This document shows positions 33,941-39,367 of a stretch of DNA of 64,000 bases, piece by piece. The stretch is taken from positions 153,632 to 217,631 of the forward strand of contig NZ_LMSE01000003.1 of assembly GCF_001428065.1 (NCBI RefSeq), written 5' to 3'. The notes under the pieces are model-generated. The model saw only the letters and a list, made by a program, of their open reading frames with translations, did not search any database and was not told the origin of the DNA. The DNA is from Nostocoides sp. Soil756 (GTDB taxonomy: Bacteria; Actinomycetota; Actinomycetes; Actinomycetales; Dermatophilaceae). The number at the start of each line of letters is the position of its first letter. The stretch's first letter is position 1. Position numbers and translations under genes: made by a program.

Positions 33941-35365
33941 TCAGTAGGCGAAGCGCTCGAGGTGGACCGCGTCGCGGGCCGCCCCCGCCTCGAGGGCGGC
34001 GGCGCGCACGGCATCCATCCAGGCGTCGTTGCCGCAGACGTAGACATCGTGCTCGGCCAGGTCGGGGACGATCTCGCGCAGCGCCCGGGCGTCGCTCAGG
34101 TGCGAGGCCTGCCGCGGCAGCCAGCTGGCCCGGCCCGGGATGCGGCGCCCCTCGACCTGCACGTAGCGGGCACCGCGGGCGGCGGCCAGGGCCTCCAGCT
34201 CGTCGGCCAGCACGGCCTCGGCCTGCGAGCGCACCCGGTGCACCACGGTCACGTCGCCGGGAGCCTGCGGCAGCTCCTCGAGCAGCGCGCGCAGCGGCGT
34301 GATGCCGATGCCGGAGCCCATCAGGAGGACCTTGCGGTGGGCGCGGACCCCGCCGTGGAGGCGGCCGTAGGGGCCTTCCAGCAGCACCCGGGTGCCGGGA
34401 CGCAGCGCGGCCAGGCGGGCCGAGCCGTCGCCGACGTGCGCCGCGGTGAGGCGCAGGGTGCGTCCGTCCGGGGCGGCCGAGAGCGAGTAGGGGTTGGCGC
34501 GGCTCCAGCCAGGGCCGTCGAGGAAGCGCCACTGGAAGAACTGGCCGGCCCGGGCCGGAAGGGCGCCCACCCCGTCGCCGCCCACGGTCACGGTGGTGAC
34601 GCCGGGTGCCTCCTCGCGCACGTCGAGGACGCGGATGGGTGAGCGCAGCGAACGCCACACGGGCACGCCGACGCGGAAGACCAGCACCGTCGCGGCGGTG
34701 ACGGCCCACAGCCCCCACCAGAAGAGGGCGGCCGCGGTGGAGTCGAGGAACTGCGCGCCGGTCCACAGCTGGTGCGGCAGGACCAGGCCGGCGCCGACGT
34801 AGCCGTAGAGGTGGATGAGGTGCCAGGACTCGTGCCGGAGCCGGCGGCGGGCCCGGCGGACGGAGGTGACGACCACCATCACCAGGGCCGCGGTGCCGGC
34901 GAACGCGAGCAGCATCCCGGGGTAGTTGACGACGAAGTCCCAGATGGTGCCCCAGATGCCGAGCGCGCTCGAGGCGGCGTAGCCCACGGTGATGAGGACG
35001 ATGTGCGCCATCAGGAGCGTGAACGAGGTGAAGCCGACCAGACGGTGCACCCGGGCCAGCTCGTCCTGCCCCCAGGCCTGCTCGACCCACGGCACCCGCG
35101 CCATCAGGATCACCTGGATCAGCAGCAGGGCCGAGGCGACCAGCCCGGTGACGCGCCCGGTCGAGGTGAAGAAGCCACCCCAGGTCGCGAGGGCCTGCAC
35201 GCCTCCCCCGGCCACCCACAGCGCGACGACCCCGAGGAGGACTGCCCAGCCGGCCGCGGCGGTGGCGTCGCGCCACCAGCGCGGCACGGGCGCGAGCCGG
35301 GCCCGGCGACGCCGTGGAGAGGTGGCGGTGGTGGATGCCTGGGCCCGCACCGTGCTCGTGGTCAT
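33941..35365 (-). CDS. Ferric-reductase-like transmembrane flavocytochrome with FAD/NAD domain
   Basis: A 474-residue protein. About six hydrophobic segments (residues 35-240) carry candidate heme ligands in [18 protein letters not shown] and [13 protein letters not shown]. The cytoplasmic ferredoxin-NADP-reductase-like half has the FAD motif [11 protein letters not shown], the dinucleotide motif [17 protein letters not shown] and a terminal [10 protein letters not shown]. It can pass electrons from NAD(P)H across the membrane, probably to the FMN-binding protein encoded next. ATG at 35365 is preferred; the longer frame runs antisense into amylosucrase. Confidence 0.9.
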
Positions 35366-35453
35366 GAGGGCAACTGTTCTCGCGTTCCCTATGCGCCGGC
35401 TGTGAACGGGTTCGGTGCGCACCGTGAGCCGGCGGGGCAGCCGGCGGACATGG

Positions 35454-35482
35454 TGGAAACGCTTGCGCAGTTCCGTCAGAAT
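35454..35482 (+). promoter_or_regulatory. LacI-type operator and leaderless -10 before amylosucrase
   Basis: TGGAAACGCTTGCG (35454-35467) matches the cre/LacI-family consensus TGNAANCGNTTNCA at every specified position but the last. CAGAAT (35477-35482) lies 6 nt before the GTG at 35489. The operator would cover the -35 area, which suggests repression by a sugar-responsive LacI-family regulator. No such regulator gene is in the window. Confidence 0.6.
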
Positions 35483-35488
35483 GCCGCC

Positions 35489-37408
35489 GTGAGCGCAACG
35501 GTGCCCCCGACCCCTCCCCTGCCGGGCGGGGCCCCACCCGACCGCGCCGAGATGCTGGCCGCGCGGCTGCAGCGCTGGTGGCCCGACCTGTACGGCGGCC
35601 TGGCCGTGCTGTACGGGCCGGGGCGCGCCGAGACCGTGGGGGCCGCGCTGGTCACCCTGGCCGCCCGGGCCCACGCGCGTCGCCCCGACCGGCTGCACCG
35701 GCGCGACCTCGACCGGATGCTGGAGCCTGACTGGCTCCAGGACCCCGGAATGGTGGGTTACGCCGCCTACGCCGACCGCTTCGCCGACGACCTGCCGGGG
35801 GTGGCCGCGCGCATCCCGTACCTCGAGGAGCTCGGGGTGCGCTACCTGCACCTGATGCCGCTGCTGCGTCCCCGCGACGGTGACAACGACGGCGGCTACG
35901 CGGTGGCCGACTACCGGCAGGTGCGCCCCGACCTCGGCACCATGGACGACCTCGGCGAGCTGGCCGACGCCCTGCACGAGCGCGGGATGAGCCTCGTGCT
36001 CGACCTCGTGCTGAACCACGTGGCGCGCGAGCACGAGTGGGCGCGCAAGGCCCGCGAGGGGACGCTGCGCTACCGCTCGTACTTCCACGTCTTCCCCGAC
36101 CGGCGCCTCCCCGACGCCTACGAGCGCACCCTGCCGGAGGTCTTCCCCGACTTCGCTCCCGGCAGCTTCACCTGGGACGACGACCTCGACGGCTGGGTGT
36201 GGACGACGTTCAACGCCTGGCAGTGGGACGTCAACTGGGGCAACCCCGACGTGCTGCTCGAGTACGCGCAGATCATCCTCGACCTGTCCAACCGCGGGGT
36301 CGACGTGCTGCGCCTGGACGCCATCGCCTTCATGTGGAAGCGCCTCGGCACCGACTGCCAGGGCCAGCCGGAGGTGCACGCCATCACCCAGGTGCTGCGC
36401 GCCCTGACGCGCATCGCGTGCCCGGCGGTCGCCTTCAAGGCCGAGGCGATCGTCGCGCCGACCCAGCTGCTGGCCTACCTCGGACAGGGGCGCTACACCG
36501 GCAAGGTCAGCGACCTGGCGTACCACAACAGCCTCATGGTGCAGGTGTGGTCGATGCTCGCGAGCCGCGACGTGCGCCTGGCCGCCCACGCCCTCGGGTC
36601 GCTGCCGCCCAAGCCCACCACGGCCACCTGGCTCACCTACCTGCGCTGCCACGACGACATCGGCTGGGCGGTGATGGACGAGGACGCCGCCGCACTGGGG
36701 CTCACCGGGCCGGGGCACCGGCACTTCCTGGCCGACTGGTACTCCGGCGACTTCTGGGGCTCGCCGGCGCGGGGTCTGGTGTTCCAGTTCAACCCCGACA
36801 CCGGCGACCGCCGCACCTCCGGCACCGCGGCGTCGCTGGTGGGCCTCGAGAGCGCCGAGACCGACGACGAGCGCGAGAGCGCCCTGGCCGCGCTGCACCT
36901 GGGCCACGCGATCGTGTTCGGCTGGGGCGGCATCCCGGTCATCTGGAGCGGCGACGAGCTCGGACAGCCCAACGACCCGCACTGGGCCGACGAGCCCGGG
37001 CACGAGGGCGACAACCGCTGGGCGCACCGGCCGCGGCTGGACGCCGAGCGGGTCGAGCAGCGGCGCGACGTCTCGACCGTGGCAGGGCGGGTGTTCGGCG
37101 ACCTGGCGCGGCTGGCGCAGGTGCGGGCCGGGCTGGCGCAGCTGCACGGCTCGGTCGAGACGACGATCGGCCCCGTCGACGACCCTGGGGTGCTGGTGAC
37201 GCTGCGCGAGCATCCGCTGGGGCGGTTCGCGGGCGTCTACAACGTGACGCCCGAGGTGCGGCACTGGCCCGGCTGGCGGGTGCGCGAGCTGGGGCTGGCC
37301 GACGCCGTCGACGCGCTGACCGGCGAGGGGCTGGCGTGGGACGCCACGGGCGACGTCCGCCTCGAGCCCTACGCCGCCCTCTGGCTGACCACCCCTCCCT
37401 CCCCCTGA
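35489..37408 (+). CDS. Amylosucrase (GH13)
   Basis: A 639-residue glucansucrase that uses sucrose to build alpha-1,4-glucan and releases fructose. GH13 motifs: [14 protein letters not shown], nucleophile Asp277 in [18 protein letters not shown], acid/base Glu319 in AFKAEAIV, and Asp390 in CHDDIGW. The WKRLGTDCQ extension, [20 protein letters not shown] and DNRWAHRP match Neisseria-type amylosucrase closely. Length (about 630) agrees. GTG at 35489 is chosen because an operator and a hexamer sit directly upstream; ATG at 35450 (13 extra residues, running through the operator) is an alternative. It is divergent from the flavin-transfer operon. There is no signal peptide. Confidence 0.9.
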
Positions 37409-37434
37409 CCCCTCCCCCTGACCCCTGCCTCCCT

Positions 37435-37484
37435 CGAACGTGTGTGAAGAACGTCGGCATGTAGAGGTTCTTCACACACGTTCG
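37435..37484 (+). repeat. Hairpin repeat copy 1 flanking the DUF559 gene
   Basis: CGAACGTGTGTGAAGAAC (37435-37452) and its exact reverse complement (37467-37484) form a perfect 18-bp stem around the loop gtcggcatgtagag. It starts 26 bp after the amylosucrase stop, preceded by a C-rich CCCTCCC tract. Copy 2 at 38511-38560 has the same orientation and loop core (CGTCGGCATG). It could act as a terminator, but the loop conservation suggests a repeat family. Confidence 0.92.
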
Positions 37485-37550
37485 CGGCCGGGGGCGCAGG
37501 GCTGTGGACGACGCCCGCGGCCGGCCGCCCCGAGCGGCCATGCTGCCGGG

Positions 37551-38480
37551 GTGACGACGCCGCGCCCCCCTCGCAAGGCGCTGCGCCGTGCCGCGAGGGC
37601 CGCGGCCGAGACCTCCGGTGGCGCCCTGCCGCGGTGGCGACTGCTGGAGCTGGGGTTCGACCACGCCGCCGTCCAGCGCGAGGTGGATGCCGAGCGCTGG
37701 CAGGCGCTCGGGACGCACACCGTCGTCCTGCACACCGGCCCGGTGGGCATCGAGGCCCGGCGTCACGCCGCCGTGTGGGAGGTCGCCGCCGACGTCGCCC
37801 TGGTCGACGGCGGCTCGGCCCTCCAGGCGGCCGGCCTTACGGGCTGGAGCGACGACCAGATCCACGTCTCCGTGCCCCGCAACGCCCGCTGCCCGAAGGT
37901 CGACGGGGTCCACGTCCACCGGGTGGCGCGCCGTCCCCACGAGGCCGCGGGGACCACCCTGCCGCGTACGACGGTCGAGGTGGCTGCCCTGAGGGCGGCT
38001 GCGTGGGTGCGCACCGACCGCCAGGCTGCGCTCGTGCTGTGCCTGGTGGTCCAGCAGCGGCTCACCACGGGCCCGCGCCTCCAGCAGGCGTTCCGCACCG
38101 TCCGCAACCGGGGCCGTCGCCCGCTGGTGCGACAGCTGCTGCGGGACATCAGCGACGGCGCACAGTCGCTCGGCGAGCTCGACTTCGCCCAGCTGTGCCG
38201 GCGGTACGGGTTGCCCGAGCCGGAGCGACAGGTGGTGCGCCGAACCGCTCGTGGTCGCATCTACCTGGATGTGCGCTGGGCCGGCTCACGTCTCGTCGTC
38301 GAGATTGACGGTGCGGGCCATCGCGTGGGGCTGGCCGTGACCGACGACAACCTCCGGCAGAACGACATCGCCCTGGGCCGCGACACCGTCCTGCGCATCG
38401 ACCTGGTGGGGCTGCGCATCCAGGAGCGCCTGTTCATGGAGCAGGTCGCGCGCGGGCTCGCCCTCCCCCTCGCCGCCTGA
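37551..38480 (+). CDS. DUF559 (Vsr-like PD-(D/E)XK fold) protein with AbiEi-like N-terminal domain
   Basis: A 309-residue protein. The N-terminal part (about residues 15-60, PRWRLLELGFDHAAVQREVDAERW) resembles the winged-helix domain of AbiEi-type antitoxins. The C-terminal DUF559 domain carries the nuclease-like constellation Asp240 (IYLDVRW), Glu251 and Asp253 (LVVEIDGAGH), then DDNLRQNDIAL and TVLRIDLVGL. GTG at 37551 is 6 nt after CATGCT and lacks a ribosome-binding site. No toxin gene is adjacent. Base use at third positions is a little less GC-rich than in neighbours. Direct-repeat hairpins flank it on both sides. Catalytic activity is inferred only. Confidence 0.82.
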   Translation: MTTPRPPRKALRRAARAAAETSGGALPRWRLLELGFDHAAVQREVDAERWQALGTHTVVLHTGPVGIEARRHAAVWEVAADVALVDGGSALQAAGLTGWSDDQIHVSVPRNARCPKVDGVHVHRVARRPHEAAGTTLPRTTVEVAALRAAAWVRTDRQAALVLCLVVQQRLTTGPRLQQAFRTVRNRGRRPLVRQLLRDISDGAQSLGELDFAQLCRRYGLPEPERQVVRRTARGRIYLDVRWAGSRLVVEIDGAGHRVGLAVTDDNLRQNDIALGRDTVLRIDLVGLRIQERLFMEQVARGLALPLAA

Positions 38481-38510
38481 CCCTGCCCCCCCTCCCCTCC
38501 CCTCCCTGCG

Positions 38511-38560
38511 CAAACGTGTGTGAAGAGCGTCGGCATGCCGAGGGTCTTCACACACATTCC
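38511..38560 (+). repeat. Hairpin repeat copy 2 flanking the DUF559 gene
   Basis: GTGTGTGAAGA (38516-38526) pairs with TCTTCACACAC (38545-38555), with looser outer pairing. The loop contains the palindrome CGGCATGCCG. It starts 30 bp after the DUF559 stop and ends 27 bp from the convergent TSUP stop, again preceded by a C-rich CCCTCCC tract. Most positions match copy 1 in the same direction. Confidence 0.9.
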
Positions 38561-38587
38561 GGGTGAGGCGGGGGGAAGGTCGGGGTG

Positions 38588-39367
38588 CTACCAGAGGCCG
38601 GCGAGGTCTCCCCCGATGCGGATGACGAACGCCACGACCACCACCACGAACACCGCCCGGATGAACCGGCTCCCCCGGGCCACCGCCGTGCGGGCCCCGA
38701 TGTACCCGCCGAGCAGGTTCGCCACCGCCATCACCGCCCCGACCTTCCACAGCACGTGCCCGCCCGGAGCGAACACGGTCAGCGCCCCGAGGTTCGTCGC
38801 CAGGTTGGTGATCTTGGCCTTGGCGCTGGCCTCGAGGAACGCGTAGCCCAGCAGCCCGACCAGCGCGAACACCAGGAACGACCCGGTGCCCGGCCCCAGC
38901 GCGCCGTCGTACATCCCGATGACGAACCCGGTCAGCACCGCCGCCGTCGTGTGCCGGCCGCCGCTCCAGCGCAGCCGGGTCAGCTGGCCCACCGACGGCT
39001 TGAGCAGCGTGTACGTGCCCACGACCAGCAGCATCACGAGGATGACGGGGTTGAAGGCCGACTTCGGGATGTGCAGTCCGAGCAGCGCCCCCCCGATGGC
39101 GCCGACGTACGCGACCGCCGCCATCGGCAGCGCCGTGCGCAGGTCGGGGCGCACCCGGCGGTAGTACGTGCCTGCCGCCGTGGCGGTCCCCCACACCGAG
39201 CCGAACTTGTTCGTCGCGAGCACCTGCGCGGGGCTGGCACCCGGCAGGCCGATCAGCAGTGCCGGCAGCTGCACCAGCCCGCCGCCACCGACGACGGCAT
39301 CCACCCAGCCGGCGAGGAAGCCGGCGAGCGCGAGCAGGATCAGGACGTGCAGTCCGGGGTCGGCCAC
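38588..39367 (-). CDS. TSUP family sulfite/organosulfonate exporter-like membrane protein
   Basis: A 259-residue polytopic membrane protein (about eight hydrophobic segments) of the TauE/SafE family. GFLAGWVDAVVGGGGLVQLPAL and VLATNKFGSVWGTATA mark the first repeat; GFVIGMYDGALGPGTGSFL and KITNLATNLGAL mark the second. The substrate is unknown; anion export is typical. The GTG at 39367 is 65 bp after the HAD gene, probably in one transcript with proS-HAD. Confidence 0.88.
   Translation of the reverse strand: MADPGLHVLILLALAGFLAGWVDAVVGGGGLVQLPALLIGLPGASPAQVLATNKFGSVWGTATAAGTYYRRVRPDLRTALPMAAVAYVGAIGGALLGLHIPKSAFNPVILVMLLVVGTYTLLKPSVGQLTRLRWSGGRHTTAAVLTGFVIGMYDGALGPGTGSFLVFALVGLLGYAFLEASAKAKITNLATNLGALTVFAPGGHVLWKVGAVMAVANLLGGYIGARTAVARGSRFIRAVFVVVVVAFVIRIGGDLAGLW

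Follow-up and report, generated by a model that had tools for sequence, protein, structure and literature searches.

The stretch of DNA analyzed here (64,000 nucleotides of Nostocoides sp. Soil756, contig NZ_LMSE01000003.1; hereafter the window) carries, on its forward strand at 37551..38480, a gene predicted to fuse an AbiEi-like part to a DUF559-type nuclease, and this gene lies between two related palindromes, here called type A or type 1. The upstream palindrome (37432..37487 with extended arms; outer arms CGAACGTGTGTGAA..TTCACACACGTTCG) and the imperfect downstream one (38513..38558) are given no strand. Folded as DNA, both scored better than 200 of 200 dinucleotide shuffles, with z values of -7.2 upstream and -4.2 downstream. 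The arm GTGTGTGAAGA, with at most one mismatch, was matched four times in the 64 kb compared to 0.34 expected, and all four matches fall inside the two hairpins. A first-pass annotation of this stretch had described an 18-bp perfect hairpin at 37435-37484, and the core of the upstream palindrome forms exactly these 18 perfect pairs; its second hairpin, placed at 38511-38560, is indeed a related palindrome 3' of the gene, with its ends at 38513 and 38558. The conserved loop core CGTCGGCATG proposed there did not hold up, as the loop core varies between copies and species and it is the outer arm CGAACGTGTGTGAA that is conserved instead. Nor does the common orientation ascribed to the copies carry much meaning, because each element is a near-perfect palindrome. 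Outside the unit lie an amylosucrase-like gene on the forward strand (34772..37408, the extent of the open frame and not the established start) and, convergent with it on the reverse strand, a TauE/SafE (TSUP) gene (38588..39367). The window genome (3.47 Mb in nine contigs) holds only one full-length DUF559 relative.

The N-terminal AbiEi-like part of the protein spans about residues 18-183 and the C-terminal PD-(D/E)XK-type nuclease part about residues 205-303. Of 61 full-length proteins, L062 was omitted from alignment A1, leaving 60 relatives; among them E209, D240 and E251 do not vary and D253 is kept in at least 90%, which bears out the earlier remark that D240, E251 and D253 are retained. 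The name DUF559 derives from the relatives, 12 of the 60 matching Pfam DUF559; the window protein alone has no Pfam DUF559 match. Pfam AbiEi_4 was matched by 17 of the relatives and the AbiEi models of PADLOC by 53, the window protein matching the latter over residues 18-183 (E=5.9e-7). A profile of the family matched PDB 3hrl, an endonuclease-like protein, in its C-terminal part (E=4e-4). In its N-terminal domain the protein is thus like the AbiEi antitoxin of type IV toxin-antitoxin systems, but unlike AbiE systems it has a nuclease fused at the C-terminus and no adjoining AbiEii toxin, the neighbours being amylosucrase and TSUP in the window and in six compared orthologous loci. With DUF559 or Vsr-like PD-(D/E)XK nucleases it shares the C-terminal match and the acidic active-site residues, and it differs from them as a two-domain fusion bracketed by cognate palindromes. 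No match to PHROGs was found among the 60 proteins, Y1_Tnp is absent from the families that they match, and a close-relative search of viral contigs returned no relative of the window protein. We conclude that the protein is an AbiEi-like part fused to a PD-(D/E)XK-type domain of predicted nuclease activity.

Related genes were fetched at 70 loci of the order, covering 73 of the 74 listed matches; 57 were usable for flank tests and 13, with partial matches or short flanks, were excluded. With strict matching set at a local alignment score of at least 16, the flanks on either side of one gene matched in 42 of the 57 loci, compared to 98 of 3192 cross pairings and none of 57 shuffled flanks. A class-wide sample of 296 genomes yielded relatives at E<=1e-30 in 151 of them. 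This wider search scored up to seven candidates per genome, and the 30 best-scoring loci were used; four that repeated earlier loci were dropped from the strict flank test and from the box positions given below but kept in the hairpin-pair test. Same-gene flanks matched in 17 of the resulting 26 class-level loci, against 23 of 650 cross pairings and 0 of 26 shuffled flanks. Hairpin pairs matched in 36 of 57 order-level loci (78 of 3192 across loci) and in 14 of 30 class-level loci (23 of 870). Among control genes, 11 of 167 passed, of which five were themselves DUF559 genes, leaving 6 of 162; this test is conservative because the control loci were partly picked for holding palindromes. The clustering of palindromes at DUF559 genes that the first-pass annotation had raised is therefore a strong enrichment. 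An explanation by terminators only, with a dispersed hairpin after stop codons and one full-length DUF559 relative, was dropped on finding variant palindromes at the DUF559 genes of other species. Matching palindromes were also seen on both sides of two other genes of Phycicoccus sp. HDW14 (L109 5686-6765 and L111 7294-7698).

The 36 matched order-level loci fell into 19 palindrome types by single-linkage clustering at similarity 18, in which one link or two, that of L196 with the TCGAGGTR type and that of L070 with L072, look doubtful. Type sharing, counted from rounded fractions, was seen in about 15 of 16 pairs at a protein identity of at least 0.65 and 10 of 22 at 0.55-0.65, falling to about 10 of 140 at 0.45-0.55 and one or two of 452 below 0.45. 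None of 13 same-genome paralogue pairs shared a type. Judged by these comparisons, palindrome type and protein co-vary, clearly above 0.55 identity and weakly over the whole matrix, and the proposed covariation of DUF559 paralogues with their hairpins is seen mainly as sharing between close proteins.

The type-1 palindrome is dispersed in the genome, as the search suggested by the first-pass annotation revealed. A strict pattern (TGTGTGAAGA-N8-38-TCTTCACACA) found 11 palindromes in the window genome, two of them at the DUF559 gene, and a looser one (GTGTGAA-N12-42-TTCACAC) found 18. When 56 genomes were scanned with the looser pattern, 7-35 copies were found in 9 of the 12 genomes of the window's genus, and one or two matches in 5 of the 44 genomes outside it; the reversed control gave none in the genus and a single match in each of two other genomes. 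All eight genomes of the genus that own the type-1 gene carry 7-35 type-1 palindromes. Of the four that lack it, three have none and the fourth, G002, has 14. The inner part of the palindrome varies by species (GA-ACGTCGGCATGCCGACGT-TC, CACGCCGGGGATCCCCGGCGTG, A[CT]CGCCGG-N-CCGGCG), the outer arm CGAACGTGTGTGAA is largely kept, and GAACGT, which the search pattern did not impose, is present in 47-50 of 50 collected type-A copies. An exact pattern found no type-A palindrome in viral contigs, and Rfam gave three matches, all far under the gathering scores of the families.

Scanned collection-wide, the strict pattern returned 41 stretches, 20 of them in Phycicoccus sp. HDW14, P. jejuensis and the Micrococcales metagenome-assembled genome (MAG) DE15.012, and the other 21 scattered over other organisms at one to three each. 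A different hairpin, GTGTGAAGAAAGTCTGC..GCAGACTTTCTTCACAC (one copy a near variant), was noted at L082:7108, L088:247, L096:229, L090:5293 and L102:6403; it recurs in Lachnospiraceae, Blautia and Roseburia assemblies, with three copies in one assembly, and perhaps represents a separate dispersed palindrome family. Three Muribaculaceae assemblies (L080:3958, L099:4951, L101:714) share a hairpin that is identical in all of them, as are its 20-nt flanks.

Dispersal was seen for three unrelated palindrome types, in genomes that carry a gene flanked by the type in question. Copies of TCGAGGTR..YACCTCGA number 9-55 in eight genomes (G003 35, G004 9, G008 42, G010 43, G005 55, G022 14, G040 25, G039 14), all of which own such a gene; five other genomes hold 12 (G001), 4 (G007), 0 (G012), 2 (G013) and 2 (G045). 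The reversed control gave no match in any of these 13 genomes. The CGTCCGAAGA..TCTTCGGACG type, from a different family of the class, is present in 17 copies in G068, 15 in G108 and 5 in G090, all owners of such a gene, with one copy in G124 of the same family and none in four other genomes. At L204 (G003:C1:165957-166404), TCGAGGTR palindromes stand in doublets 63 nt apart, resembling small arrays of the bacterial interspersed mosaic element (BIME) type.

Gene context of the type-A copies was taken from a crude home-made gene caller, which placed 51 of 52 collected copies as 31 tandem, 15 convergent and 5 divergent, the remaining one lying at a contig end. For 40 of the 46 non-divergent copies, a stop codon faces the palindrome at a distance of no more than 60 nt, and one copy follows a transfer RNA gene. 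Such positions would suit ordinary bidirectional transcription terminators whose proximity to the nuclease gene is incidental. Yet no terminator-like site (hairpin plus T tract) was found in 37300-38700, the arms are conserved beyond what pairing demands, as GAACGT illustrates, the flanks match gene by gene with sequences that differ per DUF559 clade, and a palindrome stands upstream of the gene too; we hold this explanation to be very improbable. Stem mismatches at tandem sites are G-T in 17 cases vs A-C in 8, a strand bias that is suggestive only. The conserved hairpin terminators (TRIT) of mycobacteria likewise place conserved hairpins at several actinobacterial gene ends. We know of no gene linked to them, unlike the palindromes described here, whose sequence type follows a nuclease gene.

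Between the upstream palindrome and the start codon lies a CTGTGGACGAC box (37502..37512 on the forward strand; TCCACAG on the opposite strand). In the 120 nt upstream of the gene, TGTGGA or TCCACA was present at 51 of 58 order-level loci, vs 2 of 58 downstream; the class-level loci gave 25 of 30 upstream vs 1 of 30 downstream, and the window genes 2 of 50. The box, with consensus CTGTGGA[CT][GA]AC, which we take to resemble a DnaA box, lies within 160 nt of the start in 77 of 87 loci, at distances that cluster near 48, 58 and 87 nt. A conserved upstream box at set distances would be in line with palindromes that serve as operators of the AbiEi-like part, the protein being a regulator whose nuclease domain does something else, as would the match of AbiEi models to most relatives and the binding of inverted repeats and autoregulation by the AbiEi antitoxin described in PMC7319586. 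However, the dispersed type-A copies lie mostly at the 3' ends of genes and few between divergent genes, a palindrome copy also stands downstream of the gene, and the active-site residues are retained, so that a purely regulatory role appears decidedly unlikely.

Seven complete orthologous loci hold the gene between amylosucrase and TSUP, and in all seven palindromes lie on both sides of it whichever way it points: in G000, G006 and G011 it runs the same way as amylosucrase, and in G003, G008, G009 and G010 it is inverted. At an eighth locus (G004) the contig ends within the far side of the gene, TSUP is not present, and the palindrome found upstream is an imperfect one of type 1. In G001, G005 and G022 amylosucrase and TSUP meet with neither the gene nor a type-1 palindrome between them, in agreement with the first-pass proposal of a gene-plus-hairpin unit inserted between two convergent genes. 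On the accompanying question of whether relatives that lack the unit keep one hairpin or none, these three genomes show no type-1 palindrome at the junction and G002 shows half of one. In this fragmented metagenome assembly (L214, about 449-464) the two genes are joined via a half palindrome CACACACGTTCGCG, which suggests a deletion scar where the unit may have been lost. In G007 the gene does not adjoin TSUP, and amylosucrase was not found there. The DUF559 gene evolves faster than its neighbours: beyond the closest species, its protein is 58-71% identical to the orthologues in G003, G008, G009, G010 and G011, compared to 79-89% for the proteins of the neighbours. The gene-less G005 junction (L207, about 1410-1475) contains a different long palindrome, CTGCCGGAACCTTCGGCGACCGG..CCGGTCGGCGAAGGTTCCGGCAG, which may represent a further type or else a terminator. 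At G022:C35:55827-55924 (L148/L157) a pair of near-identical hairpins (GTGTGAACAACCCGCGC..), separated by 61 nt, was seen, and similar words occur at the amylosucrase-TSUP junction of that genome.

When the same TCGAGGTR-type locus was compared between G008 (L160) and G003 (L161), the flanks were 91% and 94.5% identical up to the palindromes, whereas the unit between the palindromes was inverted, with 73% DNA identity and 67% protein identity, and the palindromes were of different subtype. Since the flanks are near-identical and the unit is inverted and diverged, the stretch exchanged or inverted is the palindrome-bounded one. Exchange and inversion in place with breakpoints at the palindromes, the presence or absence of the unit at amylosucrase-TSUP and the half palindrome of G002 would also agree with a homing-like selfish gene, for which a fixed palindrome site is cut and the cassette is copied in by homologous repair, solo palindromes spreading by other means. 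Vsr-like homing endonucleases exist, and homing normally splits the recognition site into two halves. Here, however, two whole palindromes flank the gene, and homing would leave the dispersed palindromes whose type follows the gene unexplained; we therefore regard it as unlikely.

To our knowledge, the main known case in which a single-copy enzyme gene is accompanied by dispersed palindromes cognate to it is that of repetitive extragenic palindromes (REPs) and REP-associated tyrosine transposases (RAYTs), and no published association of DUF559 genes with palindromes was found in the open-access literature (PubMed Central). In Nunvar et al. (PMC2817692), RAYTs are presented as fast-evolving genes, each between two palindromes with which it co-evolves, and REP abundance as following their presence. 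The system described here is alike in that a single gene is bracketed by two cognate palindromes, the palindromes are dispersed in intergenic DNA in numbers that track whether the gene is present, palindrome and gene co-vary, the gene evolves faster than its neighbours, and arrays are formed at times. It differs in its enzyme, an AbiEi and PD-(D/E)XK (DUF559) fusion and not a Y1 HUH transposase, in its symmetrical palindromes of about 42-56 nt, and in its hosts, which are Actinomycetes. Y1_Tnp was found in none of 15 genomes, compared to 5 of 14 well-known control genomes in the same search, and the aligned copies of type A, the type inspected for it, have symmetrical arms and share no GT(A/G)G head of the kind found in REPs. 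The lack of a Y1 transposase and of this head in type A, together with fewer copies, means that the gene is not a RAYT. The first-pass comparison with REPs and RAYTs, on a different nuclease fold, thus proved sound as to layout, and the unit recurs class-wide. That annotation had also set its proposal against a hairpin found at many gene ends with no enrichment near DUF559 genes. Occurrence at many gene ends was indeed found, but with strong enrichment at DUF559 genes, and we do not count it as refutation because a REP-like system predicts dispersal.

Several observations weigh against a cognate, mobile pair. Gene-owning genomes carry 7-35, 9-55 or 5-17 copies of the three types, unlike REPs, which usually exceed 100; these are lower bounds because exact patterns were used, and a table of PMC2817692 includes some REP counts below that figure. 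The 14 type-1 copies of G002 are orphans of a gene apparently lost, and orphan TCGAGGTR copies exist as well, since several of the 12 in G001, which has no gene so flanked, look genuine. No matching flanks were found at the strict cut in 15 of 57 order-level and 9 of 26 class-level loci. At 0.11, a value that 71 of 2000 shuffles attain, the Mantel correlation over the whole matrix is weak because types are mostly unrelated below about 55% protein identity, and many close pairs are orthologues that occupy a single locus, so that shared descent alone would also yield like palindromes. Compensatory change within type A is not clearly above shuffles, as 174 (inner stem) and 107 (outer stem) of 2000 reach the observed value, or 107 and 217 when G000 is left out. 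Of the G000 palindromes, 10 could be assigned an orthologous position in G006, and every one of these is occupied in both genomes, so that no recent movement was seen in that pair. No clean pair of empty and filled sites was obtained for a solo palindrome; where this was compared, at a cysteine desulfurase gene, the neighbours and the gene order differ. Finally, the AlphaFold2 model from the single window sequence was unusable, with a predicted local distance difference test (pLDDT) score of 40.

Taken together, we consider it fairly probable that the locus is a cassette with two ends, the AbiEi-DUF559 nuclease gene standing between its palindromes, in which nuclease and palindrome are cognate and which is RAYT-like in layout. 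The sequences themselves document the bracketing of the gene, the dispersal of the palindromes, the matching of type to protein, the presence or absence of the unit, its inversion in place and the conservation of active-site residues. From its two domains we infer that the enzyme would bind and cut the palindrome, and its spread follows at one further remove. Recognition of the palindrome, whether in duplex, cruciform or single-strand hairpin form, would fall to the AbiEi-like N-terminal part, and its cleavage to the PD-(D/E)XK-type domain. Repair might then copy palindromes to new intergenic sites, giving solo copies and small arrays, or alternatively the whole cassette could be exchanged and inverted between its palindromes. 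The palindromes would accompany a single-copy nuclease gene as non-autonomous elements, in the way that REPs accompany RAYTs, but with an unrelated enzyme. More tentatively, and with somewhat less than even confidence, we propose that these are selfish elements found across the class Actinomycetes, whose AbiEi-PD-(D/E)XK nuclease, being neither a transposase nor a recombinase, may spread its own palindrome of roughly 45 bp through the genome and exchange or invert its cassette in place, enzyme and palindrome diversifying together while paralogues of the same genome keep separate types.

A second system with the layout of REPs and RAYTs, built on a non-homologous enzyme, would mean that this arrangement arose more than once. 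It would also give a role to a widespread and uncharacterised group of genes, present in 151 of the 296 sampled genomes of the class at the threshold used. Each enzyme points to its own candidate substrate, which makes a direct test possible, and the 19 palindrome types with their enzymes would form a specificity series for a possible sequence-specific nuclease.

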